Source of the DNA: Virgibacillus doumboii
GTDB taxonomy: Bacteria; Bacillota; Bacilli; Bacillales; Amphibacillaceae
Length of the DNA: 64,000 bases
Direction: 5' to 3'
Assembly (NCBI RefSeq): GCF_902806455.1
Contig: NZ_CADCWQ010000001.1
Span: 3,162,001-3,226,000 of the forward strand
Part shown: positions 24,366 to 41,167 of the stretch, piece by piece
Layout: each line of letters opens with the position of its first letter
How positions within the stretch are numbered: position 1 is the stretch's first letter
The notes under the pieces: generated by a model
What the model was told of the DNA's origin: nothing
Database searches by the model: none
Seen by the model: the letters and a program-made list of their open reading frames with translations, nothing else
Made by a program: the position numbers and the translations under genes

Positions 24366-24596
24366 CAATATCATCTCCCGTTATAAGTGTAAACGGTTTC
24401 TTACTTAATAGTGTATCAAATAATCCGGTGTATTGTCACATAACGTTCATATTTTGGCTTGGGGGAATTATGGTGATTTATTGTTATTTCTAAATCAGCA
24501 TCCTTGCTGTCTTCTGCATATGTGATGGTCTAAAAAGACTTCGCTCAAATAAATAGCATGCCTCTAAATGAATGCTATTCCGGTTAACAGAACAAA

Positions 24597-24636
24597 AGAG
24601 GCTTCCAAAAAGTTCAATAACCTAATGGAAACCTCT
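24597..24636 (-). terminator. Minus-strand terminator, probably the original groEL terminator
   Basis: AGAGGTTTCCA and TGGAAGCCTCT pair on the minus strand (one mismatch), followed by TTTTGTT. It lies about 95 bases downstream of the groEL 3' copy and has no other gene to serve. Confidence 0.6.
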
Positions 24637-24732
24637 CTAAGAACTCAGAAACTAATATCGGTCACTATTTCAGACACTAAAATTATTTGAAATGGTTATG
24701 AACGTAGATGTAATAAGGAGTAGAGACCTATA

Positions 24733-24750
24733 TTACATCATGCCGCCCAT
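24733..24750 (-). other. 18-bp groEL 3'-end copy: probable attachment site scar
   Basis: On the minus strand ATGGGCGGCATGATGTAA encodes MGGMM-stop, the usual end of bacterial GroEL. No groEL precedes it: the bases upstream encode nothing GroEL-like. Such a stub followed by a terminator is what remains at the far end of an element that integrated into the 3' end of groEL. The intact gene is predicted at the other end, to the right of this window. Confidence 0.6.
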
Positions 24751-24866
24751 AATGTTTTATGGTGTAACATCTTTTATAAGGTGTCAATAAAATGTGGCAT
24801 ATCAGTATTCTTCCATTTTAATACTGTAACATCTTTAACATAAAGTAATGTTTTTTACTTCATTGC

Positions 24867-24895
24867 GTTAGCAAAATGTTAGCATTTTGTTAGCA
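24867..24895. repeat. GTTAGCA repeated three times at 11-bp spacing
   Basis: GTTAGCA at 24867, 24878 and 24889, with spacers AAAT, TTTT. Helically phased 11-bp direct repeats next to an attachment site look like arm-type integrase or excisionase sites. Confidence 0.6.
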
Positions 24896-25045
24896 TAAAT
24901 TTCATATAGGGTCAGCTTTTATTCACGGAACGAACATCGAAAAGCTATGCTATTTTTGGCACAGGTTTGGTTTGTTGTTTAACAATCCAGAAAAAACACC
25001 ATTCTTATTCACATAATGATAATTATGTTATGATGGAGCATTAGT

Positions 25046-25063
25046 GATAACAGATCTGTTATC
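25046..25063. repeat. Perfect 18-bp palindrome
   Basis: GATAACAGATCTGTTATC is its own reverse complement over all 18 bases. Candidate operator or recombinase site inside the left end of the island. Confidence 0.6.
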
Positions 25064-25082
25064 AAAATATTATCAAACAAGA

Positions 25083-25121
25083 AAAATCACCCTAAGCTGT
25101 TAAAAGGGCAAGGGTGATTTT
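25083..25121 (-). terminator. Terminator of the ABC-3C operon
   Basis: AAAATCACCCT and AGGGTGATTTT pair around a 17-base loop; on the minus strand T residues follow. It lies 16 bases past the ATPase stop codon. Confidence 0.8.
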
Positions 25122-25136
25122 CAAGTCTAATATTAT

Positions 25137-26903
25137 TTAATACTTGAAGCCAAATAAAGCACCTGAACCATCTTCAGTTTGTTCAAGTTCACATACAATA
25201 TCTTTGCTATTTAACTTATCTTTGGAGACGTCTGAATCTATTAAACTGATGATATATTGCACATCATTTTCATTGCAAAATTCTTCAATGAATTCGAGAT
25301 AGGATCCTTTACGGTTCTCATGCAATGCTTCAAAAGGTCCATCATGATACAGAAATTTAAAGAAACTTTTATTAGAATAATAGCTTAAAATAGCTAAATC
25401 AAAACACATACACAGCATTTTTCTATATGAAAAACCTTCATCTTCATGTGTCAAGGCACCACTATCTGTAATGATACCAGCATTAAACTCAACATTCGAT
25501 GTGGTATTAGTTGAAATATCAATTATTCCGTTCTTACTTGTTATAGCTTCAAAGTAGGTCTTAAATAGATACCTAATATCATTTAAAACTTTATTTCCAT
25601 ATTCTATTTTCGAGTCTATTGTTTCATTAATTTTTTCTAGTTCCTTCTTCTTTTCATTTAATTCTTTTATATCTGTTCTTGTTTGTAAAATTATATCTTT
25701 TTGTGTCTCGAGACTTTGGATGTTCTTTTCTTTTTCAATTAAATTAGCCCGCAAATTTTTGTACTTATTAATAACATCAGTATCTTGCAATACATTTAAA
25801 ATACCTGATCGTTGTTTTCCTAAGTCTTTTAGCTTTTCATCAACTACCTTAAGCTCTGCTTTTTTATCAATAAGCAGCTTTGATAAGTGAAACCTTCTAT
25901 CTTCAAGTAAAGACTTATTAAAACTAATTAAATCTTCATATGATTTTTGAAGTTGATCACTAAAATAAATTTCGACTTCTTCAAAAAGCTCTTTTATGTA
26001 GTCAAAGTCAAGAAACTCTTTCGTCGCTAATGAGTTTTCAATAAGATCGATGTCAGACCTTAAATTATAGGCTTTATTTTGTAAGGAAATCGACTTACTT
26101 TCAATCTCTTTAATTAATTCCTTGCTAATTTGTTTTTCATTTAAATAGAAGTTAAATGAGTCGAGATCCTGTTCCAATATTTCTTTTTCCCTAGTCAGAA
26201 TATCTATTTGTCCATTGATTCTATCTATATCTGAAGCATTATAATAGTCTTCCATATTTTTTATTTTAGTTTTCAAGGCTTCAATTTCATTATTTAATTC
26301 ATATTTTTTTAAGAGCAGATCACTATCAAATCCTAGTAATTCATATACAAAGGGTTTCCATACTTGGTCTGTAGAACTTGAGAACTTTGTTAATTGAAAA
26401 ACATCACTATAATCATTTTGAGTTCTTATAAAATAGCCTACTAGTTTACGATAATCATAATCTCCTAATATATCAAAGTTTAATTTTTCATTTAAAATTG
26501 TTGTTGCTGGGACGACATTTTCACTCGTAGTATTTAGAACTAAGTTTGTGTAATCCCATTCTTCACATTCCAACAATTCTGTTGAATAATCAAGTATTTT
26601 TATGTCTACTCTTGTAACGTTGCTAAAAGATCTTCTAATTGTTAAATAATCACCATTATTTAATTTTAATTCCAGATAAAACGTATGATCCTTAAAAATC
26701 TTTTTCTTGTTATAAAAATAGTTTCCCTTTTTTACTTCCTTAAGTAGCATGAAATCTATCAGTTGAACAAGAGCACTTTTCCCAAGGTTGTGTGGATCGT
26801 TTACATTTTTATCGTGGACATAACCAAAGATGATATTTAATCCATTTTTAAATTCAATATCTTTAAACCTTGAATCATCGCTATACAACCTTGATAATTT
26901 CAT
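25137..26903 (-). CDS. ABC-three-component system ATPase (DUF2326-type)
   Basis: A 588-residue ABC/SMC-like ATPase. The N-terminus MKLSRLYSDDSRFKDIEF then GLNIIFGYVHDKNVN leads into a short P-loop, DPHNLGKSALVQLIDF (GKS at 41-43). Long coiled coil fills about 195-440. The C-terminal lobe has FSYRKMLCMCFDLAIL and the Walker B-like FLYHDGPFEAL, then a region of HENRKGSYLEFIEEF. This arrangement is that of the DUF2326 ATPase of ABC-3C conflict systems. It is the last of four overlapping genes and its start overlaps the middle component by 4 bases. It would act as the sensor or motor; the trigger is unknown. Confidence 0.82.
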   Translation of the reverse strand: MKLSRLYSDDSRFKDIEFKNGLNIIFGYVHDKNVNDPHNLGKSALVQLIDFMLLKEVKKGNYFYNKKKIFKDHTFYLELKLNNGDYLTIRRSFSNVTRVDIKILDYSTELLECEEWDYTNLVLNTTSENVVPATTILNEKLNFDILGDYDYRKLVGYFIRTQNDYSDVFQLTKFSSSTDQVWKPFVYELLGFDSDLLLKKYELNNEIEALKTKIKNMEDYYNASDIDRINGQIDILTREKEILEQDLDSFNFYLNEKQISKELIKEIESKSISLQNKAYNLRSDIDLIENSLATKEFLDFDYIKELFEEVEIYFSDQLQKSYEDLISFNKSLLEDRRFHLSKLLIDKKAELKVVDEKLKDLGKQRSGILNVLQDTDVINKYKNLRANLIEKEKNIQSLETQKDIILQTRTDIKELNEKKKELEKINETIDSKIEYGNKVLNDIRYLFKTYFEAITSKNGIIDISTNTTSNVEFNAGIITDSGALTHEDEGFSYRKMLCMCFDLAILSYYSNKSFFKFLYHDGPFEALHENRKGSYLEFIEEFCNENDVQYIISLIDSDVSKDKLNSKDIVCELEQTEDGSGALFGFKY

Positions 26904-27145
26904 ATTTTCATCTCCAAGACGTCAGATTCGATATCGTAGTTGATCCTACCTAGTAAAAATAAAAAATCAATTCCCGGTAAAAACAAATATAACGCATCGT
27001 CACCAATTTGCTTTTCTAGGTCATTATACAGTTTGCCATAACTACACTTGTAATCATTTTCTTTAAATAGCTTAATTAATATTGCAACTACATAGATTAA
27101 ACTTCTATTTAACTCTGTAAATTTATCCGGTCTCAGCAATGTCAT
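26900..27145 (-). CDS. ABC-three-component system middle component
   Basis: About 81 residues beginning MTLLRPDKFTELNRSLIYVV, with GGAG nine bases upstream; a TTG start five codons earlier is also open. The sequence LLRPDKFTELNRSLIYVVAI is like the MxLPxKHIxLxxSLLxLGAx start of the small middle components that bridge ATPase and effector in ABC-3C systems. It overlaps the effector gene by 23 bases and the ATPase gene by 4. Confidence 0.75.
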   Translation of the reverse strand: MTLLRPDKFTELNRSLIYVVAILIKLFKENDYKCSYGKLYNDLEKQIGDDALYLFLPGIDFLFLLGRINYDIESDVLEMKI

Positions 27146-27692
27146 CACCGTTTTCTCCAATGTGACATATGTAATACATAAAATGTATTACCACAGTCAC
27201 CATTTCCTCATTCTCTAAGACCTCTATATCATTAGAGTTTAAAAATCTATCAATAATATCATTTATTACTTCGCTAAAAAATTCCTTTTCTCTTTTTATT
27301 TCAGGTATTTTTCTATTGATGGTCTTCTTAATATTATTGTATGATTTCTTTAACTTTTTATTACGAGGGTCAGCCAATATATCCTTAATAGCCTTAAAAA
27401 AAATACTGCTTTCAATTATGACTTTGTTGTAGTCATTACAGCCTTTTTCTTCTAAATTATTAATGGTATTTTTCGCTACAATGTTTATCCTCTTTAATCC
27501 ATCGTCTTCAACACCTTGATTAGGCTCCGAGTCATCTTCAAGCTCTAACTCCAAAAAGTCTATTACCTTTTTTAGGTTATATGGATTAATAACGTCACTT
27601 CTCTTATGTATAACGTTTTGGTTATATACATTGCCATCATTGTTATAAACTGGGCTATAATCACCTTTTGTAGTATTTTTACTTCCTGTCAT
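27123..27692 (-). CDS. ABC-3C-associated variable protein, probable effector component
   Basis: A 189-residue helical, charged protein. Its N-terminus GDYSPVYNNDGNVYNQNVIH carries a motif shared with the membrane peptide upstream. The rest (about 40-189) has no fold I recognise; it contains a helix-rich segment KKSYNNIKKTINRKIPEIKR. In ABC-3C operons this position is held by the component that carries the effector or target-recognition part. Function is inferred from operon position only. Start overlaps the upstream gene (ATGA). Confidence 0.55.
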   Translation of the reverse strand: MTGSKNTTKGDYSPVYNNDGNVYNQNVIHKRSDVINPYNLKKVIDFLELELEDDSEPNQGVEDDGLKRINIVAKNTINNLEEKGCNDYNKVIIESSIFFKAIKDILADPRNKKLKKSYNNIKKTINRKIPEIKREKEFFSEVINDIIDRFLNSNDIEVLENEEMVTVVIHFMYYICHIGENGDDIAETG

Positions 27693-27871
27693 CTTCCATC
27701 ACCAAAACTTCCTTTTACATCACCATCGTTATTATAAATAGGACTATTTTTTCCTTTTGTTTTATTAGTGCTTTTTTGAGTTATCCTTATAGATTTAAGA
27801 ACAAAGCCCCCTGTAGCTCCGAGTATAAGGGTAAGCAGATGGGTTATAACAGTTGTCCAATCAATAGTCAT
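27689..27871 (-). CDS. Membrane-anchored small protein heading the ABC-3C operon
   Basis: 60 residues: one membrane helix (about 8-27, THLLTLILGATGGFVLKSI), then a basic stretch and SPIYNNDGDVKGSFGDGR. The SP(V/I)YNNDG(N/D)V motif recurs at the start of the next protein, so both may bind the same ligand or the longer one may be the soluble paralogue. GAAGGTGATT lies upstream of the ATG. First gene of the operon. Confidence 0.6.
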   Translation of the reverse strand: MTIDWTTVITHLLTLILGATGGFVLKSIRITQKSTNKTKGKNSPIYNNDGDVKGSFGDGR

Positions 27872-28025
27872 TTACAATCACCTTCTTCTTAGTTTAATAA
27901 GTTTTATGTAATTTCCTTAATAGTTTAAAGCTATTATTTCAAATTATGAATTTTTTTACAATACCCATGTATTTTCTACAGTAAGTCTAAAATATTAGAA
28001 TATAGATCCAGGTTCACGTAAAATA

Positions 28026-28076
28026 AATGAAGCAATCCCCCAGTGGACACGGAACAGGTAGGACGATTGCTTCATT
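28026..28076 (-). terminator. Hairpin after the hsdR remnant
   Basis: AATGAAGCAATC and GATTGCTTCATT, 12 bp with a 27-base loop, followed on the minus strand by TATTTT. The original terminator of the decayed hsdR, two bases after its stop. Confidence 0.65.
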
Positions 28077-28077
28077 T

Positions 28078-28496
28078 TTATGATGCCTCTTGCTGATATA
28101 AAGCTTTTTGGAAAGATGTAAATGTTTCTTGAATCTTGCTAACACCACCGAGGACTTCTACAGCATCTGTAATTGAATGGTATTTATGCTCTAGTAATCG
28201 CGGTAATTTTTCTTGGTCAAGCTCTTCATAGCCAGTTTCAACGTACTTAGAAAGAACAAAATCAAGAAATTCTCCTTCTTTGTCGTCCAAATTCTTAAAG
28301 ATACTAGTCTTAGCTTTGGCTAAGCGCTCTTCTCTTGAAATAGGCTTTAATTTATTAAACTTTGCAATACAGATAGTTCATCTTTTCCATATCCCTCATT
28401 AGCGAGACTTTCTAATAATGCTTTACGAGTCTTAGGATTTGCCCAAATTTAACGCAATTCGTCTTTAATTTTAAAAAAGTCAGGCAACGTCCCATA
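28078..28496 (-). pseudogene. Type I restriction subunit HsdR, decayed C-terminal end
   Basis: Pieces of one HsdR tail in shifting frames. YGTLPDFFKIKDELR is followed by a TAA, then IWANPKTRKALLESLANEGY and GKDELSVLQSLIN to another TAA. A frameshift leads to PISREERLAKAKTSIFKNLD and the final open part EGEFLDFVLSKYVETGYEEL ... FQKALYQQEAS. The order and motifs are those of the EcoR124/EcoEI-type R subunit C-terminus. At least two stops and one frameshift make it inactive. No hsdM or hsdS is nearby. It continues directly from the chimeric gene at 28497-29036. Confidence 0.8.
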
Positions 28497-29036
28497 TTAG
28501 TTTTCTAAAAACTCTTCAGCCGAAATAGGTTTTCCATCAGCAGTCCAAAAGCTAGTAGCAACAGTATGCTGGATTTCTCGTTCTTTCCCGTCTCTTAATT
28601 TTATCCTTATTGTTTTCTTAGGTTCTCTCGGTTCGTCTGGATCTCCAGGTTTATCAGGATTGCCTGGGTTTCTAGGGCCTCTTGAAAAGGCCGCCACAAC
28701 TGCACCTAAAATACTAATATAGACAAACATCTTTATCCCATTACCATTTGCAATTCTGGCCATATGCAGTGCTGCCCATTCAAACAGACCAATTTCATCT
28801 AATATTAGTGAAATAAGTATAATAGCGACAAATGCCAGGGTTGCATTCCACACAATTTCTGTTACTTCCCAAACATCGCTGAACCCAATTACACCTGCCA
28901 ATAAAGCAACAACAGCACCACCAATAGCAGACCAACCAATATTCAGCCCTTTAGGCTGCCAAATAACCAAAATAAGTGTAACTAAAAAGATTATAATCGC
29001 TAGTATAAGCGTTGATGACAAAACGTGAACCCCCAA
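28497..29036 (-). pseudogene. Chimera: ArsB N-terminus fused in frame to an HsdR fragment
   Basis: Residues 1-114 are the first three membrane helices of an arsenite efflux pump ([60 protein letters not shown]). After VVAAFS the sequence switches to [20 protein letters not shown], then [20 protein letters not shown] and [17 protein letters not shown]. That is the proline-rich linker and following domain of HsdR, whose remaining tail lies downstream. The frame is intact across the join and ends at a TAA that interrupts the HsdR part. Probably a deletion between an ars operon and an hsd locus; no function is expected. Confidence 0.75.
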
Positions 29037-29178
29037 TTAACAACATTACCGTGGTTAAACGCGTTTTATCACCCAACAATTTTAAATCATTGCAGCTTTA
29101 TCCATTTCAATTGCAGCATATATACACCGCCTCCCTTATACTCAAATCATCCTTTTGTCCCAGCCTCCTGGTACAGTA

Positions 29179-32169
29179 TTAATTATTCTCACTGTTATTA
29201 CTTAGCATGTCGTTAATGATATCTCGAATGTTATCATTATTGGTCTGCTTGTAATACTTGACTTCAAACCCTTGTTGTTTGAATAACTCAAAGATTTGAT
29301 ACGGTGTTTCTATTTTATCTGACTCGCTACCTCTTAAGGTTCTCTCGCTATCAACACCCTTACTTTCAATAACAGCTTTTATGGTTGGGTTGCCCTCATT
29401 ATCTTTAACCACATACATAAAGTCAGGGCTGTAGGTACTGCCATCGATAAATGGAATCTGAATGCTACGTTTTGGAATCTTACCAAAGACCTCGATGCTG
29501 TCGTGTTGAGCTTTGATGTTCTTATCTTCTATATCGGAGTCATATAGGATAGTGTCATATAAATAGGCTTTCATTGGGGTGCCCTTAGTATGCTTTGTCC
29601 CTAAATATGCTGAGGTCTTCACGTGCTCCCTTGGATTACCATCAGCTTCTGTTAATTGAGTTGGATGAACTCTGGTATTGGATAACTTTTTGTAGGAATA
29701 CACTTTTAATAGTTCATCATATAACCGTTCCTTAAAATAAAATGTTAAATTTCTAACCGTGTCAAAAGTGAAAAATGAGTCTTCTAAGGTCTTCTCCTGC
29801 GATGCCTTAGATATACCCCTATGAACCAGAGGAATGGCTACATTGGTACTTTGAGCTAACCTCTTTAAAAATTTACCATATGGAATGGTGTCATAAAAAG
29901 TATCCACCGAATCGGTTACTTGAGTGAAAACAAATTCTTCCTGAACCATTTCTAATATATCTCTAGTGGTACTTCTAGCAGTACGATCAATTAACTTATC
30001 TGTGATAACCTCAGAGATGATATTAACTAACACTTCATCTTCTACCTGGTCGAAATATAAATAATACTTTTCATTGAGTTTTTCCCATAATTCTTTGACC
30101 TTCCAATAATTCTCCTGTCGGATCTTAACTTTTCTGTCTTTATCACGATTTCGATCCGTAACCTTATCATCATCTAACTTATTAAAGACTTCTGGATACT
30201 CATTTAAGAACTCGGTGAGCTTGTCCTGTTTAACTTGTCGATTTATGTCGATATACCCCTTAGTTAAGAGCTCAACAACTACTTGCTCTTGAGTCATATC
30301 CTTATCCGTAGCTAACTTTTCTACCTGTTCCTTTGAAAGTTCCTTTTTATCAAAAGAGGTTTCTCCATAGATTTCTTTTTCTAGTTTTTTGATAAAATCT
30401 TCCTCTGTAAAATCGACTATATAGTTAAGCATGAAAGACTCATTTTCAACTCGATTTCCAGATTGATCTACAGGTAACCTTAAACCACGACCAATCTCCT
30501 GTAGTTTACTATTGTCACTACCACTTGAACGTAGCTTGGCAATGGTAAAGATGTTAGGGTTATCCCACCCCTCTTTTAAAGTCCACTTTGAGAAGATAAA
30601 CCTCTTAGTGTTATAGTTACCATCCTCATCTGTTAAACTTAATAACTCTTCTTTATCAAACAAAATCGTATTTACCTGCTGTTCAACCTCGGCTTCAGTT
30701 GATGTATTATCTTGCGAGAAATATCCCATATGAGAGGCTTTAATATTCCGCAATGTCTCCTGAAGATACTGCTTATACTCCTCCTCATTGGCACTACAAG
30801 CTGCTATCTCATGTTCTAACTGTTTTTTCAACTCTTCTTCAAATGCAATATGCAAGTAAGGCTCCTTACCCGTTTTCTTATCATTTCGATATGAATAAAT
30901 ATCATCAATGAAAAATAAGGCTAAGGTCTTAATCTTAAACTTACGCTTGAAGTTATCTCTCTCAGACTCAAAATGACGCTTTAGAGCTAATTGAATTGAC
31001 TGCCTCACATAAGATGTGGCTAAAACATCAGAATAGAAAACATCACCTGTATACTTTTCTTCTCCGTTACTCAATAAAACTTTTGTAGCCATGATCCCGT
31101 CAATCGTTATACCCCTGAAACTATTAGACAGGCGATTTAAGGAATCAGTGAGCTTTAGATCCTTGGTTTCCTTTACCGTTTTACCACTCTCATTTACAGA
31201 AGTCTTCTGAAAACGGACATAATCACCTTTTACCATATTAATAATCTTGAATACTTCCTTCTTATTATTAGGGCTTGCTACATGCTCCTTGGCTACGCCC
31301 TTAATAAGATTATCCTTAAAAGACTTATGGATGTTGAGATCATAAATCAGATTCTGGTAGTCCTTGACCTTCATCTTATTTTTACCCCTACCTACCTGTT
31401 TTTCAGGGAAGGTGGCTCCATAACGCACAATCATTTGAGGGCGAACCCTTTTCTCAATAAAGTTATAAGTGGTCTGTTCACGACTAAAACGATGCGGTTC
31501 GTCAATAATCATAATAGGTCGAGTGGCCGCAATCCCATCTATCGGCCTGTTATAACCTCCTACCGATGAATCATAATCATTACGGACTAAGACACCACTC
31601 TTGTTATCCTTTAAATGTTGCATGTTTACTAATAAAACCTCTATCACATTTTGATGGCTAGATGTTTTATTAACAAAGTTAGTGATACTATTTGGGATGT
31701 AGTTCTTTTTATTCTTTTTTCGCTTTACCCCTTCAACCACTTCAAGGCTAATTTCACCCTTATAACCACAATTATTTCTAAAATGCTTAGCTACACTTTG
31801 GTTCTTAATAAACCTCTCGACACCTGCTTTAATAGCAAGGGAAGGTACTGCTATGATGAATTTTCTGAAACCATATAACTTATGTAACTCATAAATGGTT
31901 CTCGTGTAAACATAGGTTTTCCCGGTCCCTGTCTCCATTTTGATATCAAGATGCAACATATCTTCATTTCGAGAAATACCCCTCATAGAAGAAGGCAACG
32001 GATTTTGTAGGTTACTTATGTTTTGATATAAATATTCATCATTGATATCTATAATTGGATTCTCTATATTTCTTATCGGTCTTGAGATATCTACATTTTG
32101 AAATACTGAAGAAAGCTTCTTGATAGGCTTAACCTGATGTATTAGATTTTTCTTTAAAATTAATTCCAA
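29179..32169 (-). CDS. res: Type III restriction endonuclease, Res subunit
   Basis: A 996-residue SF2 helicase-nuclease. It starts at TTG with GGAGGTGA eight bases upstream. Motif I is MKMETGTGKTYVYTRTIYEL-like near residue 77, motif II is DEPHRF, and motif VI is QEIGRGLRLPVD. The C-terminal nuclease has SPDFMYVVKDNEGNPTIKAV then IESKG, the PD-(D/E)xK core. With the Mod subunit it cuts DNA between two unmethylated head-to-head sites using ATP. It lies 24 bases after mod. Length and motifs are complete, so it is likely active. Confidence 0.95.
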   Translation of the reverse strand: MELILKKNLIHQVKPIKKLSSVFQNVDISRPIRNIENPIIDINDEYLYQNISNLQNPLPSSMRGISRNEDMLHLDIKMETGTGKTYVYTRTIYELHKLYGFRKFIIAVPSLAIKAGVERFIKNQSVAKHFRNNCGYKGEISLEVVEGVKRKKNKKNYIPNSITNFVNKTSSHQNVIEVLLVNMQHLKDNKSGVLVRNDYDSSVGGYNRPIDGIAATRPIMIIDEPHRFSREQTTYNFIEKRVRPQMIVRYGATFPEKQVGRGKNKMKVKDYQNLIYDLNIHKSFKDNLIKGVAKEHVASPNNKKEVFKIINMVKGDYVRFQKTSVNESGKTVKETKDLKLTDSLNRLSNSFRGITIDGIMATKVLLSNGEEKYTGDVFYSDVLATSYVRQSIQLALKRHFESERDNFKRKFKIKTLALFFIDDIYSYRNDKKTGKEPYLHIAFEEELKKQLEHEIAACSANEEEYKQYLQETLRNIKASHMGYFSQDNTSTEAEVEQQVNTILFDKEELLSLTDEDGNYNTKRFIFSKWTLKEGWDNPNIFTIAKLRSSGSDNSKLQEIGRGLRLPVDQSGNRVENESFMLNYIVDFTEEDFIKKLEKEIYGETSFDKKELSKEQVEKLATDKDMTQEQVVVELLTKGYIDINRQVKQDKLTEFLNEYPEVFNKLDDDKVTDRNRDKDRKVKIRQENYWKVKELWEKLNEKYYLYFDQVEDEVLVNIISEVITDKLIDRTARSTTRDILEMVQEEFVFTQVTDSVDTFYDTIPYGKFLKRLAQSTNVAIPLVHRGISKASQEKTLEDSFFTFDTVRNLTFYFKERLYDELLKVYSYKKLSNTRVHPTQLTEADGNPREHVKTSAYLGTKHTKGTPMKAYLYDTILYDSDIEDKNIKAQHDSIEVFGKIPKRSIQIPFIDGSTYSPDFMYVVKDNEGNPTIKAVIESKGVDSERTLRGSESDKIETPYQIFELFKQQGFEVKYYKQTNNDNIRDIINDMLSNNSENN

Positions 32170-32193
32170 ATCTATTCACCTCCTAACTGTCTG

Positions 32194-34083
32194 TTAATAC
32201 CTTTTAATTAATGAAACTTCGATACTCTTATCTTCATTTCTTAACTGTTTTAAATTCGTTTCTAACTGCGTTAATACACTAAAATCTTTAAAGTTATATC
32301 CGTAGACTACTATACTTGTAGGGTTAAAATCGCCATCCTCGATTATTTTAGATAATAAGGCATCAATATGTTGAGATGCTAATCCCTCATCTAATAAGTA
32401 TAAGTAATCTTTTACTAAATAGGCTGTGTACCCCTTTAAATCTAGCTCATTTACATCTGGGGTTAAGCCATGACTATCCTGATTTAACCAAGTGGTGAGA
32501 ATCGTAGGTTTATCAAACTTGATTTCAAAGTCCGCCAGATTGAAGTTCGGGTCGAACTCCTTTAAATTATCTAACGTGTTTTCTGAAAGCACCTTGGCAA
32601 AGTAATGCTTGAATCCGTAATCGATATCGACTTTCTTCTCTTCTTGGATTTTTCGACTTGCACGAACAATCCGCTCTCTTCCAATTTCATCAATAGTTTT
32701 GTAACCTTGCTTTTCGGCTACTGAACCTTTTTTGACCGGTTCACCTATCTGCACTTGTATAAACTTCCTGTTTTTTCTGCCTTTATCAACTGCATTTTGT
32801 TCTAATACTGCATGAGCTGTAGTTGCTGAACCAGAAAAGAAATCTAATACTATGTCATCAGTATCTGTGGTAAGTTGTATCATGACTCTAACTAAATCCA
32901 CTGGTTTCGGTGTTTCAAAAACTGAATAGCCATCAAAAAGTTCCTTAAGGCCATTTTTAGCTATCTCATTCGTAGCTATATCCTCAGAAAACCATATAGA
33001 TTCTGGGGTTAACCCTCTATCTTTAGCATTTAGATAAGTTTTGAGACGAGGAACAGCGTTACCATCTTTACCAAACCATATTCTATTATCTTCGATCGCT
33101 TCCCTCATAGCCTTTTCTGTGTATACCCAACATCTACCACTAGGTAAATGATGTTCTTTACCATTTGGTGCTTTCAGAACATAAAATTGATCCTTGGTCC
33201 CATGACCTGCTTGGGCTGTTGCAGGGTCAGATTTCCACAACCCCCTAGGATCATCATCAGGATTTTTATAGTTCGATAAAGCCTTTTCTGACATTGGTAG
33301 TTTACCAATTGCTTTTTCCACATAATCAGTCTGCTTACAATAACACAACACAATATCATGCCTAGAAGATACTACTTTCCTGTTTTCACGATTAGTTCTT
33401 TTTTCTCGAGCAAAACTTGCTACAAAATTACTTTCACCGAATATATCATCACATAGTAATTTTAACTGCGAGCCTTCATTATCATCTATAGAGATAAATA
33501 TTACCCCTTTATCATTTAGTAATTCACGTGCTAAAAATAATCTTGGATACATAAAAGTTAACCAAGCACTATGGGAAGATGAGTTAGAAGAAGTCATGTT
33601 TAAAATTCTTTCAGCTTCCTCTTCCTCAACCCCTAAAATATTTGTTAATTCATCTACAGTAAATTTATAACTATCTTTATAAACAAAATCGTCCTCACCT
33701 GTATTGTACGGTGGGTCAATATAAATCATCTTGATTTGCTCGGTGTAAGACCTTCTTAAATGCTTTAATACATCTAGGTTATCCCCTGTAATATAAATGT
33801 TTTTGGAATTCTTATTCTCAGGCTTCTCGTTTTTATCCTGATTTGGTTCTAATACCGTCTCTGTCTCAAGAGAATCAGCTATATACTTAGCGTAATTCTT
33901 GCCAAGGAAATCCATATGATACCCCTCAAACGAGAAATCAAGCTCATCAGATGTCTCCTTCTTAAACTTGTCAATCAAAAACTTACCATTCTCGAAACAG
34001 TTCGGAAAATATTTTTGTAAAATATCTAATCTCTTACTGTTAAAGCGACCTTCACCATTATCATCTAAAATATTCTTAATCAC
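32194..34083 (-). CDS. mod: Type III DNA N6-adenine methyltransferase, Mod subunit
   Basis: A 629-residue beta-class methyltransferase. The catalytic DPPYNTG is at about 123-129 and the AdoMet motif DFFSGSATTAHAVL near 400, with the variable recognition domain between; this order defines the beta class. It methylates adenine in an asymmetric site and gives Res its specificity. GTG start with GGAGAGGTG upstream. Mod-res form a two-gene operon; the recognition sequence cannot be read. Confidence 0.95.
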   Translation of the reverse strand: MIKNILDDNGEGRFNSKRLDILQKYFPNCFENGKFLIDKFKKETSDELDFSFEGYHMDFLGKNYAKYIADSLETETVLEPNQDKNEKPENKNSKNIYITGDNLDVLKHLRRSYTEQIKMIYIDPPYNTGEDDFVYKDSYKFTVDELTNILGVEEEEAERILNMTSSNSSSHSAWLTFMYPRLFLARELLNDKGVIFISIDDNEGSQLKLLCDDIFGESNFVASFAREKRTNRENRKVVSSRHDIVLCYCKQTDYVEKAIGKLPMSEKALSNYKNPDDDPRGLWKSDPATAQAGHGTKDQFYVLKAPNGKEHHLPSGRCWVYTEKAMREAIEDNRIWFGKDGNAVPRLKTYLNAKDRGLTPESIWFSEDIATNEIAKNGLKELFDGYSVFETPKPVDLVRVMIQLTTDTDDIVLDFFSGSATTAHAVLEQNAVDKGRKNRKFIQVQIGEPVKKGSVAEKQGYKTIDEIGRERIVRASRKIQEEKKVDIDYGFKHYFAKVLSENTLDNLKEFDPNFNLADFEIKFDKPTILTTWLNQDSHGLTPDVNELDLKGYTAYLVKDYLYLLDEGLASQHIDALLSKIIEDGDFNPTSIVVYGYNFKDFSVLTQLETNLKQLRNEDKSIEVSLIKRY

Positions 34084-34381
34084 CCTTTACACCTCTCCTT
34101 TATCATAGTAAAAATTACTTTTATGTATCTAAACCTTAATGAAATTTCGTATTCACACTAATAACTGGACTTTTTCATAAAATATCTGTAACAACAGTAA
34201 CAATTTTACTATAAATACTAATTTACGTATAGAGTCGAAACACCTTCCTTTGTGAAGTCTATTAAAGCCTTTTCTTGTAATTTTATATCCTATACTTTTA
34301 TAGACTAATATGAACACAAGCTTGGATAGTTTTGACGAGTTCCTACTATATAATTATGTGAGTTAAAAAGGGCAAAAAGAA

Positions 34382-34402
34382 AAGGACTTCGTAAAAGTCC
34401 TT
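34382..34402 (-). terminator. Rho-independent terminator, minus direction
   Basis: AAGGACTT and AAGTCCTT with a short loop; on the minus strand TTTTCTTTTTG follows. It could close the transcript of the gene at 34721-34930. Confidence 0.65.
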
Positions 34403-34486
34403 CACCATCCCAAACTACACTATTCCAATAAAGCACCCTTAAAGTATATTTTTTCACAATCTTAGTACAAATAGATGTTGTCTGAA

Positions 34487-34510
34487 TGCGCAGTATCGTT
34501 GTACTGCGCA
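34487..34510. repeat. Perfect inverted repeat, 9-bp arms
   Basis: TGCGCAGTA-TCGTTG-TACTGCGCA. GC-rich stem in AT-rich DNA upstream of the terminator at 34382. Confidence 0.55.
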
Positions 34511-34720
34511 GCAATAACCATATAGCTAATACAACAGCTAGCCTTCCAGTTACGGCTTTAAAGACTACTTTTTCCCTTACACTTAATTATAAAAAATTAT
34601 GTTCCGTTAGGTTCAAGTAATTATAAACTCTTATACTTCTCTCTTCCCTTGAAGTAACTGATCTCCGTGTTATACAGCAAAGTTAATTATCACTCATAGT
34701 CTACTCCTTACATATATTGG

Positions 34721-34930
34721 CTAACTTAAATAATAACAATCAGAATTTAAATCTAAGAGATTCATAAACTGTTCCATTTCCATTTGGCTTCTACAACCTA
34801 TTTTAAAGGTGTTTCTATTTGAGTAATATACATCTAAATGCATTAAAGGGTGATATTCACCATCTTCATTCTCTTTATCCACTGTAAAGAAAACCCTGCT
34901 CATTTTATCTACTTTCATGAGGAACTGCAC
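34721..34930 (-). CDS. Small protein of unknown function
   Basis: 69 residues from a GTG with AAAGG close upstream, or 65 from an inner ATG (MKVDKMSRVFFTVDKENEDG). Beta-strand-rich (HLDVYYSNRNTFKIGCRSQM) and ending in NSDCYYLS. Codon use looks coding. No family recognised; no operon partner. Confidence 0.45.
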   Translation of the reverse strand: MQFLMKVDKMSRVFFTVDKENEDGEYHPLMHLDVYYSNRNTFKIGCRSQMEMEQFMNLLDLNSDCYYLS

Positions 34931-34964
34931 ATAACCTTTAAGTTATGACACCTAAAAATTATAG

Positions 34965-35269
34965 TTATTCCGCATCTTGTTGCTTTTTCTCTTTCCATCT
35001 TTCAAGCAGTGTATTCTTATTATCTCCGTCACCTTTGATAATTAACTCTTTTTTGTATTGGTTCAAGTTCAGCATAATTCAATAATTTTGCATCAGCGTT
35101 TACTGTTGCATTTTCATTCTTACCGGTTTCAGTAAACGTCCATTAATGAACTCAACAGATCATTAACCTTACTTCTGACATACTTTCTGGATTCCTTCAC
35201 CTTTAAATCTAACGCTTCATCATATAACTTATTAAATTCTTTGCCGGGATTAGTATTGTTTTTCTCCAT
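34965..35269 (-). pseudogene. Frameshifted small gene of unknown, possibly phage, origin
   Basis: Three adjoining frames read as one ancestral protein. MEKNNTNPGKEFNKLYDEAL continues to SLMDVY and a TGA. Then TGKNENATVNADAKLLNYAE in another frame, then KKELIIKGDGDNKNTLLERW and KEKKQQDAE to a TAA in the third. Charged, helical, about 100 residues when joined. Small phage packaging or plasmid proteins look like this, but I cannot assign a family. Confidence 0.5.
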
Positions 35270-35533
35270 TCGTAATATGTAGAAAATTGGTACATCAGCT
35301 TTTTTACATGCAACTTTAAGATTATATTCCCCTTACACCAACAATTCTACTAAATTAATTTGTCTACTGTCTTGCATTTCCTAGTGTCTTGTGTAGTCCG
35401 TAATACCCTCATATATTCGATATCGTAGATAGTAACAGGGCTATGGAAATGGATGTGCTACACCGTTTATATAGGGTTGCTTAGTATCCATAAGTTTGAT
35501 TGTATCCCCCCTCCCCTTTAATTTTGCCAAAAT

Positions 35534-35561
35534 AAAAACACTACGCTATATTAGTGTTTTT
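35534..35561 (-). terminator. Terminator of the 260-residue orphan gene
   Basis: AAAAACACTA and TAGTGTTTTT, 10 bp, 8-base loop. A T run lies inside the stem end on the minus strand. It begins two bases after the stop codon. Confidence 0.75.
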
Positions 35562-35562
35562 A

Positions 35563-36345
35563 TTAGGTCTCGTAATCATTAGGATTCATTTTTAATCCAA
35601 ACACATCTATTAACTTCCCACCAAACCCTGTTATGTGATAATTAATTGAATCTTCGACAACACTCTTTCTAATACTTTGAGCCATTTCTAACCCTCCGTA
35701 GATGTTTTCTTTAATTTCTCCTTCGATGAATCTTAACAATTCATTATTTTGCTCTTCTCTGTCGTATCCAATCAACCCTTTAGATTCTAATTTATAATCA
35801 ATGTGTTGACGATAACTTTCCTGTTCATAAAATAGTTTATCATCTGAGTGCTTTAATTCTCTTCGTTTATTTTCAACGTTGTGCTTCATATGAATCAAAA
35901 ATTCTGTATCATATTCCAGCAATCTTTTTATATCCTCTACCCTTAAAACTCTTAGAGTATCATAATAAGATATAATATACGCCTCATCGTTTATTTCTTC
36001 ATCAACTACATAATTGAATCCATTAATAATATAATTAACCTTCTTCTCTTGGTGCTCTTCAATCAAATCATCTAAAATATAAGGGAAAATTGTATGTTGT
36101 ATCATTGCTTTAAAAGACTTATCTTCTAATAAATTTATCTTATTTCCAATTATAGATAATTGCTTTTCGTGTAAATCCAATCTCTTCTTGAATCTCTGCA
36201 TCTTATACGCATTATAAGCACCTGAGATATATGGAGTAGCACTCATTGCATTATCTATAAGCAAATCAATAGTTGATCCGTCTTCTATACCTAATAAACT
36301 CTTTATTGTTTCATCCAAACTATTATCCATGGACTCATCCCCCAC
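35563..36345 (-). CDS. Orphan protein of unknown function
   Basis: 260 residues. The N-terminus has an acidic helix and a weakly hydrophobic, glycine-containing segment (SATPYISGAYNAYKMQRFKK, about 31-50) like proteins that associate with membranes in abortive-infection systems. The rest is helical and charged (LDLHEKQLSIIGNKINLLED), with a C-terminal YHITGFGGKLIDVFGLKMNP. No catalytic motif seen. A single gene with its own terminator inside a defence-rich region; a defence role is only a guess. Confidence 0.55.
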   Translation of the reverse strand: MGDESMDNSLDETIKSLLGIEDGSTIDLLIDNAMSATPYISGAYNAYKMQRFKKRLDLHEKQLSIIGNKINLLEDKSFKAMIQHTIFPYILDDLIEEHQEKKVNYIINGFNYVVDEEINDEAYIISYYDTLRVLRVEDIKRLLEYDTEFLIHMKHNVENKRRELKHSDDKLFYEQESYRQHIDYKLESKGLIGYDREEQNNELLRFIEGEIKENIYGGLEMAQSIRKSVVEDSINYHITGFGGKLIDVFGLKMNPNDYET

Positions 36346-36440
36346 TTTAGAACTTTCATTAATATTCTAGCATAAGGCGGAAAATTGTGGAATATTGGAG
36401 GGGAAGAGAATCCCTCTAAAATATCCATACAAAATAAAAA

Positions 36441-36459
36441 ACACTACATCCAGTAGTGT
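36441..36459 (-). terminator. Terminator of the DUF2441-like pair
   Basis: ACACTAC-ATCCA-GTAGTGT followed on the minus strand by TTTTTTATTTTG. It touches the stop codon. Confidence 0.7.
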
Positions 36460-37001
36460 CAAATGGGCTTTATTGTAATTTTCATTATGTTTCTTACAGT
36501 CGCCTTTCCTTCAAACAGGTATTCTATTTTATTTTCATCCACAATCTCTTGATTCCAATACCTTCGAGCATTTTCTCTTACAGTGTTTAGACTTCTTGGC
36601 TTACCGTTAACAAAAGTTGAATCACATTTAAAAAGATTCCCTTCTAAATTTAGCTCTAATATTTGATGAGTGCTTGGATTAAAACCCATTTCAAGTATCC
36701 AATTATCTATGTTGGAGTTTCCACTTAACCATAAGCACCTTTGTCTGGAGGGATATTCAGAATAATCTTGTTTCCTAACATCTTCAAATGCTGTTTCCCT
36801 TGCAAAATGCCAATAATATGTTAATCCTTGTGTTACTGCTGCTGGATTACTCAGTGCTGACATATCCTGAACATCGTAATCACCAAAAAACTTATTATAG
36901 CCCTCTTCTGATGTTTCTAACACATCCCCCACAGCATACCCTTTAGGATTAGGTTTTCTTGTTATATGATAAAGTTGTTTATCTGTTACGTTTTCTATCA
37001 T
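36459..37001 (-). CDS. DUF2441-like protein, possible ADP-ribosyltransferase fold
   Basis: 180 residues. LYHITRKPN at the start, then HFARETAFEDVRKQDYSEYP and SRQRCLWLSG, and a late GKATVRNIMKITIKPI. A Tyr-His near the N-terminus and the E-V/D-R...PSRxxxLWL block are typical of DUF2441 and related proteins thought to share the ART/RES fold. The family has no settled activity. It starts two bases after its partner's stop, so the pair is one operon. Toxin-like use is conjecture. Confidence 0.55.
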   Translation of the reverse strand: MIENVTDKQLYHITRKPNPKGYAVGDVLETSEEGYNKFFGDYDVQDMSALSNPAAVTQGLTYYWHFARETAFEDVRKQDYSEYPSRQRCLWLSGNSNIDNWILEMGFNPSTHQILELNLEGNLFKCDSTFVNGKPRSLNTVRENARRYWNQEIVDENKIEYLFEGKATVRNIMKITIKPI

Positions 37002-37003
37002 AA

Positions 37004-37426
37004 TTATTTATCCTTATTACGGGTTTTATAATGTGTAATATCCCAGAAACTAACTTCTGTACCATTTTCAATAAGATTCTGAACAGTAAAAATTGTCCTA
37101 TCTTCTATTTCTAACTCTTTAATATGCCCATTCATTCTATCTAATAACAACTCCCCTAAATGGCTATATCTGTATTCTCTTTGTGTGTCGTCTATAAAAA
37201 CCGTACTAAATGCTTCATCATATAATACATGAACCAATGTCACTTCGGTTAACTTGCCTTCCCTATGACTTATTTTATAAGGTGTATAGTAATTACCAAA
37301 GTCATCTGTAATAAAGTCAATGATTCCTTTTATGTTATTAATATCATCATTAGGTTCCCATCTTAGACGATTCACCCTTAGAAATTTCGGGTTAGGATTA
37401 TCTGTCATTTTATTAAACACTCCCAT
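37004..37426 (-). CDS. Unknown protein cotranscribed with the DUF2441-like gene
   Basis: 140 residues, beta-rich: RVNRLRWEPNDDINNIKGII, FGNYYTPYKISHREGKLTEV, FTVQNLIENGTEVSFWDITH. It begins MGVFNKMTDNPNPKF; the inner ATG seven codons in could also be the start. The partner follows after two bases. No family recognised. If the partner is a toxin this would be its antitoxin; no evidence beyond position. Confidence 0.5.
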   Translation of the reverse strand: MGVFNKMTDNPNPKFLRVNRLRWEPNDDINNIKGIIDFITDDFGNYYTPYKISHREGKLTEVTLVHVLYDEAFSTVFIDDTQREYRYSHLGELLLDRMNGHIKELEIEDRTIFTVQNLIENGTEVSFWDITHYKTRNKDK

Positions 37427-37888
37427 TTAACACAATTTTCTTAATTATATCATAATATATGGGATAATCCGACTAAGTTTACTAAATTATATGACGGAAT
37501 GTATCAGATTTGCACTAATATCCAAACAACTAGCCATTCCATAAAAATGAGAATAAATATTCTTCAAGAGTCCTAAACCACTACATAACTTGTCTCTTTA
37601 TATGCTAGAATAATCAGGTTTTTCACCGTTATACCTATTAATACCTCAATTTTCTTATTCATATCTTCCCCTCTGAAAGGAGCCTGTTCCAATGGATGTT
37701 TCTACATGCCCATCAAATATATAAACCCCCATCTCTTACGCCAACGTTGTACGATTCCTTTTTTGACTTCGTATTAGTCCTATCCATTTTTTTTGGCTAA
37801 ATAGCTTTCCAGCTCTCGGCATGCCCGACATTGGTCTCCAAGGGCTTTATACCCATTCCTATATCACCCTTGCTTTATCCAATAATTT
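37427..37888. other. Non-coding stretch, no recognised feature
   Basis: AT-rich at the left; the right half (37.68-37.86 kb) is more GC-rich, with phrases such as CTCTTACGCCAACGTTG that faintly recall the intron-like DNA near 60.05 kb (CTCACGCCATCGTTGG). This may be a decayed mobile fragment, but the likeness is short. Confidence 0.3.
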
Positions 37889-38080
37889 TTATCTCTTTAT
37901 GTCATCAAAAAAATCATACTTCTCCGCTACTTTTTTGAAGGATCCATAATCCTTTAGAGCAAATCCCAAGTGATAACACTCTTTATGTGTAATCGTATTT
38001 AAGATATCTAAAACAATATTTTCATGACCCTTCACAATTTTTTTACATTTTGGACAATACAACCGCTTATTGTTATTCAT
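37889..38080 (-). CDS. Small zinc-ribbon-like protein
   Basis: 63 residues: RLYCPKCKKIVKGHEN with CPKC, then THKECYHLGF with a second Cys and His, so a zinc site is possible though irregular. The C-terminus is charged. It lies just downstream of the 3' stump of the IS-interrupted membrane gene. Function unknown. Confidence 0.45.
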   Translation of the reverse strand: MNNNKRLYCPKCKKIVKGHENIVLDILNTITHKECYHLGFALKDYGSFKKVAEKYDFFDDIKR

Positions 38081-38104
38081 ACATTTACCCCCATTAAAAC
38101 GTAT

Positions 38105-38188
38105 TTAATCATTCCAATTATATAAAGTTGGCAATTTTAGCTTTTCTCTCAAAAGCTTTATTTCATCAGTTATTAAATCCGTAATCTC
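38105..38188 (-). pseudogene. 3' stump of the membrane gene interrupted by the IS1634-type element
   Basis: The minus-strand frame right after the 7-bp target duplication reads EITDLITDEIKLLREKLK then LPTLYNWND and a TAA at 38105-38107. Removing the element and one copy of the duplication joins it in frame to the gene at 39953-40474, giving an original protein of about 201 residues. Confidence 0.8.
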
Positions 38189-38195
38189 ATAATAA

Positions 38196-39952
38196 TCCTG
38201 GATTCCCGCCATTACATAACGATGAACCAGGTAAAAACGTGAAAACGCTGGGCTTTATGCCCTTTTTTTATTGTTTTTATACTCGTTATGTGTTATTATA
38301 TACATAACGAGGAGGCGATAAAAATGGCTGCTATTATCTTTCAGAAGGATAAGCGTTCAGGGATCACCTATGCCTATGAGTCCGTTTCCTATTGGGACAA
38401 GGATAAGCAACAATCCCGGTCTAAGAGAACCTTAATCGGACGGGTGGACAGTAAAACTGGGGAAATTGTTCCCACAGACGGAAGGGGACGCAAAAAGAAA
38501 GAGGGGTACGCCGTGACAAAGAAAGGTCCTGTCCCCTCTGAACAAACCGCGCGTTATTTTTATGGTGCCACGTATCTGCTAGATGAGATCGGTGCGAGCA
38601 CCGGGATTACAGAAGTCCTGAAAGCGTGTTTTCCCGACACGTACCGTCAGATTCTATCCATTGCATACTATCTAATCTTAGAGGACAGCGCTCCCCTTTA
38701 TCGTTTTGAAAAATGGAGTCACTTACATAAACATCCTTACGGTGAAAACATTACGTCCCAGCGAAGCAGCGATCTGTTCGCATCCATCACCGAAGATGCA
38801 AAATATCAGTTCTTCCAGCTGCAGGGAAAAAGGCGAACGGAAAAGGAATTTTGGGCCTATGATATCACCACCATATCCAGCCAGTCTGAACTTCTAAGAC
38901 AGGTGCAATACGGCTGGAATAAAGAAAACGATCCACTGCCCCAGCTAAACCTGGCGCTGGTATTCGGCGAAACGTCCAACCTGCCGTTTTATTACCGCAA
39001 ACTGGCTGGTAATATCCCGGATTCCAAAACCGTCGCGAACCTGCTTGCCGATTTGGATGTTCTCGGTTTCTCCAAAGTGAAGCTGGTCATGGACAGAGGT
39101 TTTTACAGTAAAGAAAATATCAACGCATTATTGAAAAACCACGTGAAGTTCTTGGTCGCCGTCAAAGTATCGCTTGTTTTCATCCGGAAAGAACTGGATG
39201 CCATCTATGACGATTTTCGATCGTTTGAACATTACAGTGAGAAATACGAGTTATATGCCCGTACGGTTCGGACGACGTGGGATTATACGCAACACCGTCC
39301 GTATAAAGGAGACACCCTGACACAGTCCAAGCGTATGTATATTCATTTTTATTACAATATTGACAGAGCTGCGGAGGACGAAAAAGCGTTTGACCGCAAG
39401 TTAATCGCCCTGCGTCAGGAATTGGAATTAGGGAAAAGGAAGCAGGAACATGAAAAGCTATATCAAAAGTACTTTGAGACAAAAACCACACCGAAACGAG
39501 GGACAAAAGTTACCGTCAACACAGAGGCTGTCAACAAGGCCAAACGCTATTTTGGATTCTTTGCGCTGATGACCAATGAGACCATGGACGCCATCACTGC
39601 GTTGGAGCTTTATCGTAATAAGGATGTCGTTGAGAAAGCGTTTGGGAATCTAAAGGAACGACTGAACATGCGCCGAACATTGGTATCATCAGAAAAGAGT
39701 CTTGACGGGAAGCTTTTTGTGGAGTTTATCGCGCTAATCTATCTTTCTTATATCAAAAAGCAAATGCAAGATACGGATTTATTTAAAAAATATACGTTAC
39801 AAGGCGTGCTGGATCAACTGGATGTGATTGAATGCTTTGAGTCAACCGGAAAAAAACTGCGTATTGGCGAGATTCTCAGCAAGCAAAAGGAAATTTATGA
39901 AAGCTTGGGTGTTATCCCGCCTACCTCGTTATGAGTACTCGGGAATCCAGGA
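38196..39952 (+). mobile_element. IS1634-type insertion sequence, complete
   Basis: 1757 bp. The ends are inverted repeats, TCCTGGATTCCCG at the left and CGGGAATCCAGGA at the right. The 7-bp direct repeat ATAATAA flanks both ends (38189-38195 and 39953-39959), a target-site duplication. It carries one transposase gene. A second inverted similarity, ATAACGA near 38217 and CGTTATG near 39926, lies just inside the ends. It has split a membrane protein gene. Confidence 0.88.
38324..39934 (+). CDS. IS1634-family transposase (IS4 superfamily DDE)
   Basis: 536 residues from MAAIIFQKDKRSG, with GAGGCGAT upstream; an open extension to 38288 is unnecessary. DDE residues sit in FWAYDITTISS, VKLVMDRGFYSKENI and the C-terminal LYRNKDVVEKAFGNLKERLN (YREK-like block). 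The N-terminus WDKDKQQSRSKRTLIGRVD is typical of this family. The gene is intact, so the element could be mobile. Confidence 0.92.
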   Translation: MAAIIFQKDKRSGITYAYESVSYWDKDKQQSRSKRTLIGRVDSKTGEIVPTDGRGRKKKEGYAVTKKGPVPSEQTARYFYGATYLLDEIGASTGITEVLKACFPDTYRQILSIAYYLILEDSAPLYRFEKWSHLHKHPYGENITSQRSSDLFASITEDAKYQFFQLQGKRRTEKEFWAYDITTISSQSELLRQVQYGWNKENDPLPQLNLALVFGETSNLPFYYRKLAGNIPDSKTVANLLADLDVLGFSKVKLVMDRGFYSKENINALLKNHVKFLVAVKVSLVFIRKELDAIYDDFRSFEHYSEKYELYARTVRTTWDYTQHRPYKGDTLTQSKRMYIHFYYNIDRAAEDEKAFDRKLIALRQELELGKRKQEHEKLYQKYFETKTTPKRGTKVTVNTEAVNKAKRYFGFFALMTNETMDAITALELYRNKDVVEKAFGNLKERLNMRRTLVSSEKSLDGKLFVEFIALIYLSYIKKQMQDTDLFKKYTLQGVLDQLDVIECFESTGKKLRIGEILSKQKEIYESLGVIPPTSL

Positions 39953-40474
39953 ATAATAATTATTTACTTTCTCTTCATCTTTCTCTTTTGATGCCCATTT
40001 TAGTTCTATAAACTTATTATACATGACTGAATCAGCATAAATAACGTTGTTGTTCATAAGCGATAAAAAATCGTTTTGTTGTTGTTCATTTAAGTCAGTA
40101 AATTTATGAGCACCGTATTGGTATATAAATTCAGAATGTAAAGCTTCAACAGGATGATAAAAATTAAATAACCTTTCCTTTGATGTTTGTAAGAATAAGT
40201 CCCGCTCCCTAATTTGTCTTTGTTCATTTAATGTTTTGTTTATGCCCTCAGTCGATGCCCTAATAGTTAGGTTCACCCCCAAAAGGGTTAAAGCACCTGA
40301 AATCACACCACCTATAATAGCCCCCCAGAATGTGCTTAATGAACTAATCCAGCTATTTACATCACCAGAAACCGGAAAAATATTAATAAACATTAAAATA
40401 TTTATTAATATCGGAAATATAGCCAATATCAATCCTATGTAGAATATAAATTTCTTTGTTGTTTTTTTATCCAT
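39929..40474 (-). pseudogene. Membrane protein gene, 5' part, cut by the IS1634-type element
   Basis: Two N-terminal membrane helices (about 10-30 and 48-68), then a cytoplasmic helical domain: TIRASTEGINKTLNEQRQIR, FYHPVEALHSEFIYQYGAHK. The last native residues are KVNNYY; SWIPEYS at the end is encoded by the inverted repeat of the element. Proteins with this layout (SLSTFWGAIIGGVISGALTL plus a phage-related helical domain) occur in defence regions but have no assigned job. The truncated product lacks about 27 residues. Confidence 0.75.
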
Positions 40475-40989
40475 TTATAGTTGCCCCTTCTCAGTTAATT
40501 ACTTCGACAACAAGAGACAGTTTTCCTGCAAAAAAGACCGCATTTTTTCCTATAACCTTATGATCTATCCACTCTCAGTGAATGGCATAGAGTCCTTCCT
40601 TAATCCTAGTTCTATGAATATAAAAAGGGTATCCCATAATCTGTATTGCAATAATGAAGCTAAGAGATTCTCCTATTTTACACGAAGGTTTTTTTACTGA
40701 ATTTAATTAAAGGAAGCATTTAAAAGTCTTATAGAAAAGGGATACTAAAAAAAAGGTTTATAGGACTTTTATAATACATTGGTGGATTAAATTTTGACCT
40801 CTCTCTATATTAACTATCAGTAATTAAAATATAAAGACGAAAATAGAATCGATATGTGAAAATTGTCGATTGAAGCATGTAACCTTTTTGGCATTTTTGA
40901 ACTTACCTTTTGCTTTATATTTAGTTTAATTAATCAGGAATAGCTGAAAAGGGGAAAACTAATAATAGAGTTAGAAGGGGATGAAATCA
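40475..40989. other. Non-coding stretch
   Basis: AT-rich, no gene supported. Its right end carries AGAAGGGG in front of the small frame at 40990. Confidence 0.4.
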
Positions 40990-41115: not shown

Positions 41116-41167
41116 ACTGAAAGTATACCATGAAACAGCATTTTTATATTATGTATATTAGACTCTT

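Follow-up and report, generated by a model that had tools for sequence, protein, structure and literature searches.

A 46-kb island at the 3′ end of groEL in Virgibacillus doumboii and a candidate groEL terminator in the tail of its integrase gene

Results and discussion

In a 64,000-bp stretch of the Virgibacillus doumboii genome (the window, C1:3162001-3226000; genome 3.9 Mb, 99.99% complete) we identified one end of what is most likely (probability roughly 0.8) an integrative island of 46,370 bp that has inserted at the groEL end, in which a hairpin in the tail of the integrase gene, int, substitutes for the displaced groEL terminator. Sequence comparison shows both att copies, an integrase gene, arm-like repeats and a flank resembling that found 3′ of groEL, and the tail hairpin is conserved across site-adjacent integrases beyond the needs of the protein. 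The hairpin would end groEL transcription, and may have been selected to protect groEL, int or both. The island itself probably was, or still is, able to excise.

The island and its two borders

The features that define the borders are as follows, with extended coordinates continuing the window numbering past its right end.

24732..24750, minus strand: distal att copy (scar), a 19-bp direct repeat that matches the groEL 3′ end exactly
24751..64000: in-window part of the island, which runs on to extended coordinate 71102
24867..24889, plus strand: arm-like repeat GTTAGCAAAATGTTAGCATTTTG at the left island end, with an identical 23 bp at 71032-71054 (extended)
69810-71021 (extended, outside the window), plus strand: integrase gene int, encoding a 403-aa tyrosine integrase (Pfam)
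70978-71014 (extended), minus strand: hairpin in the last codons of int, placed from its offset of 89-125 after the groEL stop codon
71103-72743 (extended, outside the window), minus strand: groEL (PF00118 match)
72792-73076 (extended, outside the window), minus strand: groES, behind groEL

The original prediction started from an isolated groEL-end 18-mer on the minus strand with no groEL attached. This 18-mer, ATGGGCGGCATGATGTAA, is indeed present at 24733-24750 (minus strand) and is the sole match in the window when up to three mismatches are allowed (0.03 expected). Genome-wide, at up to one mismatch, there is one further copy, which is exact (C1:3233103-3233120) and forms the 3′ end of the genome's single groEL, the only PF00118 match. 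The groEL sharing at least 18 bp at its 3′ end that had been called for is thus in the genome, and the contrary case, an 18-mer found in no groEL of the genome, did not arise. After extension the exact direct repeat is 19 bp long (24732-24750 and 71102-71120, extended), its two copies lie 46,370 bp apart, and the groEL copy is to the right, outside the window. An island of more than 39 kb with groESL at its right end, beyond the window, had been foreseen, and both its size and the position of groEL and groES agree with that expectation.

The target gene is intact: groEL is open over 546 aa, is present in a single copy and ends in GGMGGMGGMM. Upstream of groES is an inverted repeat that we take to be CIRCE-like. 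The int gene is convergent with groEL, with its stop codon 81 bp from the core, and its product contains the domains Arm-DNA-bind_4, Phage_int_SAM_3 and Phage_integrase (Pfam). The presence of this gene at the groEL end supports the earlier view of the scar as the remnant of an element inserted in the groEL 3′ end. The right copy of the 23-bp repeat GTTAGCAAAATGTTAGCATTTTG sits between int and the groEL end, both copies lie inside the island ends, and a similar motif is found between int and the core in many related elements; we consider these repeats putative arm sites.

The GC content of the island is 33.9%, compared with 38.6% for the left flank and 41.9% for the right flank. The predicted turn to accessory composition right of the scar holds in that the island has the lower value; as a boundary marker composition is weak, because several 4-kb pieces of the left flank have only 35-37% GC.

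Island content

The main recognised cargo within the window consists of the following genes.

25137..27692, minus strand: ABC-three-component-like (ABC-3C) set of a DUF2326 protein, a middle component and a CTD12 protein (Pfam)
29179..34083, minus strand: type III restriction-modification, restriction and methylation subunits (Pfam; PADLOC REase_III, MTase_III)
43237..46673, minus strand: three adjacent tyrosine recombinases (320, 363 and 470 aa), each with a Phage_integrase domain
52714..55692, plus strand: PAS-GGDEF-EAL-PilZ protein (Pfam)
56701..59277, minus strand: DinG-like helicase (Pfam; PADLOC PDC-S28)

Within the ABC-3C-like set, 25137-26903 matches PDC-M68B and LmuB in PADLOC, and the row of recombinases at 43237-46673 presumably resembles a recombinase-in-trio element. 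Further cargo in the window comprises a transposase, a UPF0236 protein and a resolvase-domain protein. The ArsB arsenical pump gene is a fragment (28497-29036; 106 of 423 profile positions matched), and two minus-strand matches to Rfam group II introns are present, one of D1-D4-5 at 60165-60348 and one of the domain 5-6 type at 59558-59642. Motility-related cargo occupies the right end of the island beyond the window (L003:1631-4632: an Hpt-domain fragment, CheX, MotB, MotA and an EAL fragment), accompanying the PAS-GGDEF-EAL-PilZ protein at 52714-55692. Among 30 scanned ORFs (24 in the window and six beyond, a subset of all ORFs), Pfam recognised neither conjugation or relaxase genes nor packaging, capsid-interference or replication genes of the type found in phage-inducible chromosomal islands (PICIs).

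A probable displaced groEL flank left of the scar

Two features lie on the outer side of the scar.

24586..24731: apparent former groEL 3′ flank, also resembling the end of an older groEL-site element (identity to G050)
24596..24637, minus strand: orphan terminator-like hairpin on the groEL strand (-22.4 kcal/mol), 96-137 nt after the scar stop codon

Flank and core together (160 bp) are 83% identical to the DNA immediately 3′ of groEL in the same-genus genome G050, and the outer flank therefore looks like former groEL 3′ DNA. The hairpin begins 96 nt past the scar stop codon, which bears out the 95 bp originally noted between scar and terminator. On the plus strand the hairpin stretch reads in frame as an integrase-tail-like sequence, KEASKKFNNLMETSL, and over 55 bp it is 87.5% identical to the 3′ end of a groEL-adjacent integrase gene in the same-genus genome G052. 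Because of this reading frame and this match, the displaced terminator resembles the tail of, and probably descends from, an older integrase of the groEL site. Parts of the unit on the left side of the scar, which is approximately 160 bp long (hairpin, CTAATATCGGTCACT motif and sometimes a core-like end), also occur away from groEL in G045, G046, G047 and G050 (loci L043, L046, L048, L049, L050 and L051), possibly as leftover element ends at other sites.

A terminal-oxidase cluster (20187-24374) lies beside the scar. The cluster is conserved in the genus, but no relative was found to have it next to groEL, and the DNA left of the island may therefore have undergone a rearrangement of its own. 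An orthologue of the oxidase subunit gene is present in eight same-genus genomes (78-89% identity). Its distance to groEL is about 330 kb in G043, and in G052 it is more than 400 kb from groEL and its scars; in the other six, which are draft genomes, no core-pattern match was found within 280 kb on the oxidase contig. Searches via the left flank (12 same-genus genomes) and via the oxidase subunit I protein (12 genomes) found no empty oxidase-groEL junction, and the anticipated strain in which qoxD is closely followed by groEL did not turn up among the same-genus genomes compared. The case for an empty junction therefore depends on the 146 bp next to the scar, whose counterpart comes directly after groEL in G050.

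These borders suggest the following course of events. The tyrosine integrase would have recombined attP with the last 19 bp of groEL, thereby inserting the island, and groEL would have stayed whole, since the element carries these 19 bp as well. The original groEL end with its terminator would have been moved 46 kb away, to the far end of the island, where it would now form the scar. With its own terminator displaced, groEL would run unterminated into the convergent int 81 bp on. The last int codons, read on the groEL strand, may supply a replacement in the form of a hairpin and T-run, which would properly end the groEL mRNA and would also shield int from antisense transcription off the strong heat-shock promoter.

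groEL 3′ ends in related genomes

The core pattern is present in 134 of 159 family genomes. The DNA 3′ of groEL was readable in 112 family genomes, the rest having no pattern or no readable groEL end in the fetched stretches; two of these 112, G003 and G021, were included solely on account of the integrase search. A complete or partial integrase lies within 1.5 kb of the groEL 3′ end in 44 of the 112 flanks, and a profile of the tail adds ten, which gives 21 near-full-length integrases, 23 fragments, ten tails and 58 flanks without a detected integrase. A hairpin with T-run on the groEL strand is found within 350 nt past groEL in 109 of the 112. At the level of the order, 25 of 29 fetched integrase loci adjoin groEL, compared with none of 18 for distant integrases. 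Genome G052 has stacked cores at 3660391, 3749590 and 3802911 (the last with one mismatch), each with its own integrase.

A gene conserved downstream of groEL was considered as an anchor and rejected, the commonest neighbour occurring in only 8 of 68 genomes without an integrase match. Several independent origins of the hairpin were likewise considered and dropped: in an integrase tree of 73 rows (rows shorter than 330 aa excluded), all 41 groEL-site rows fall in one supported clade of 55 rows, within which several changes of the groEL-site label are still required. In at least eight genomes (G094, G162, G175, G201, G237, G273, G279 and G299; example L007:1-1041) a second related integrase, 49-60% identical to that of the window, lies upstream of the groEL-site integrase, on the same strand and no more than about 1.5 kb away. 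The second integrases included in the tree (L007, L201 and L205) form their own clade.

Fragmented loci bear on the fate of the tails. In a set of named genomes, which overlaps the earlier set in part (L244 is G094), 79 loci were fetched, of which 59 with a readable integrase C-terminus were kept and 20 dropped. The hairpin is present in all 50 site-adjacent loci, that is in 23 of 23 integrases beside groEL or the core that reach the N-terminal region (in L247 groEL is 1.7 kb away) and in 27 of 27 C-terminal fragments, and in 4 of 9 integrases located elsewhere or at an unknown place. The preservation of tails after loss of the protein fits their retention as groEL terminators. In the loci of the named genomes solitary C-terminal integrase fragments are common and N-terminal ones rare; this contrast is a lead and not a measure, because the tail contains one of the six peptides used in the search.

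On balance we favour the wider reading that groEL-site elements encode a spare groEL terminator in the C-terminal codons of their integrases, which is kept when the element decays, and that in many Bacillales the working groEL terminator would be a domesticated integrase tail, renewed with each integration. Possible, though in our view doubtful, is the reverse direction of transfer: the island would be as described, but a groEL terminator of the host would have been taken up into the 3′ codons of the integrases, and the orphan terminator would be native host DNA. Such capture would agree with the terminator still found in most of the 58 flanks without a detected integrase, some of them with the same stem type. 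It agrees less well with the integrase-like codons that some integrase-less flanks keep outside the stem, with the antisense matches to the tail profile in 53 of the 112 flanks (none in reversed sequence), or with the occurrence of the protein motif KKEASxKF in site-adjacent integrases of different stem types as well.

Strand asymmetry of the tail hairpin

The last codons of the window int (KKEASHKFGKLMRRLQ) form, on the groEL strand, a hairpin followed by a T-run. A DNA-level role for this structure, as an inverted repeat bound by the integrase or as a folded recombination site in an otherwise identical island, is suggested by its position, since the hairpin adjoins the att core and the arm-like repeats and is tied to the site. 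We judge this reading unlikely, because the T-run is one-sided: among 50 site-adjacent integrases a hairpin with T-run is found on the groEL strand in 48 and on the int strand in three.

The pairing pattern also speaks for an RNA on the groEL strand. We paired 41 distinct hairpins outward from their centres (excluding L014 and L025, which are shorter and in another register). The number of cells changed on both sides of the stem was 68, compared with 27.1 in shuffles (maximum 39) and 7-25 when the alignment was slid, although relatedness among the genes means that these cells are not independent. Counted by pairs, 11 have at least one two-sided change, which does not exceed the shuffles (mean 8.6, maximum 11). 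On the groEL strand G-U pairs outnumber A-C pairs by 114 to 18, a ratio above that of the slid controls (about 1.5:1 to 3.3:1); base composition clearly contributes to this excess, because G-U exceeds A-C in the slid controls too (90:27 to 144:90). Of 48 hairpins, 44 fold better as groEL-strand RNA than as the complement, though they were picked by that energy.

Conservation of the hairpin beyond the protein sequence

A terminator on the groEL strand in the spacer before int is found in only 2 of the 50 site-adjacent integrases. We recoded the last 36 codons of each gene synonymously 300 times, with codon frequencies pooled from the same genes. Of the 50 site-adjacent tails, 48 reach -10 kcal/mol, and for 48 no more than 6 of 300 recodings do as well; 35 are better than all 300, with a mean of -20.1 compared with -4.4 for the recoded tails. 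The failures are L017 (a broken gene) and L215. For an inner control segment located 50 codons deeper in the gene, one gene of 50 passes and 5 of 50 reach -10.

For integrases without a core nearby, the tail passes in 6 of 35 and the inner segment in 2 of 35. The passing tails include groEL-related ones, from L013 (beside groEL with a diverged core), L012 (groEL-type tail) and L021 (from a groEL-linked element, with int displaced), and others without a known groEL link, L234 and the second integrase of L205. Three integrases of the displaced type (L019, L023 and L128) fail the test. Under a stricter rule (gap of at most 1 nt, 150 recodings) the contrast between site-adjacent and core-less integrases persists: -10 is reached by 47/50 versus 6/35, and 45/50 versus 4/35 are better than all recodings.

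The window's own int has a weaker hairpin: its energy is -16.5, a gap of 2 nt separates it from the T-run, and 4 of 300 recodings do equally well; under the stricter rule it scores zero. For this gene taken alone, the structure could possibly be a by-product of the protein motif KKEASxKFxxLM and low-G+C codons: lysine codons yield a T-run on the opposite strand, and chance recodings sometimes give strong hairpins (minimum -20.3, own int). As a general explanation we consider this very unlikely, since for the group it is contradicted by the recoding result and by the retention of the hairpin in every one of the site-adjacent integrase fragments.

Chance resemblance or mere duplication of the groEL end as the origin of the scar, which the repeated GGM codons in which groEL ends are rich might suggest, can practically be dismissed in view of the 19 exact bp in only two genome copies, the low expectation even at three mismatches, and the presence of an integrase gene and paired arm repeats at the island borders.

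Relation to known systems and implications

The int domains presumably represent a Tn916-like layout, and the island's integrase shares with integrases of this layout the domain order arm-binding, core-binding, catalytic. Among such integrases a groEL-strand tail hairpin occurs in 48/50 site-adjacent members and in 6/35 of the others tested. Convergent genes may share a terminator or end within the coding sequence of their neighbour. The arrangement described here is similar in that the terminator overlaps the opposite coding sequence, but here the gene on the other strand is part of a mobile element, and each integration would bring the terminator along.

According to excerpts of a published account, staphylococcal islands (SeCI-SE48 and other PICIs) insert at the groEL 3′ end; the terminal 18 bp of the gene serve as att, groEL is unaltered and the integrase gene adjoins it (PMC8125051). 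Judged by these excerpts, the present island is like them in its groEL 3′-end insertion, groEL-end att, intact groEL and adjoining integrase gene, and thus is of a kind already known, here in another bacterial group. The PICIs, as portrayed there, are phage-induced, carry packaging-related genes and reside in staphylococci, whereas the present island is 46 kb long and carries defence and motility cargo, with no packaging gene in the scanned ORFs. The excerpts mention no terminator in int of the staphylococcal islands (PMC8125051). ICESt1 and ICESt3, in the portions of their description consulted, insert in the 3′ end of fda (PMC3234194); they resemble the present island in having a tyrosine integrase and inserting in the 3′ end of a housekeeping gene, and differ in their conjugation modules, of which none was recognised here in the scanned ORFs. 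The terminators described in those portions lie in the regulation module of the element and not in int (PMC3234194). A terminator inside an integrase gene, or its survival as a remnant, was not found in the literature searched, in which subscription journals are thinly covered, and on this basis the integrase-encoded groEL terminator and its persistence as a remnant appear to be the new part.

If the proposed reading is correct, it would explain how large insertions can occur repeatedly behind an essential, strongly induced heat-shock gene without loss of termination. The integrase tail would illustrate cleanly how a single sequence can be doubly constrained, encoding a protein on one strand and an RNA terminator on the other. 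It would also provide a practical mark for finding and bounding groEL islands, including stacked ones, in unannotated genomes, and integrase tails would be a source of new host terminators.
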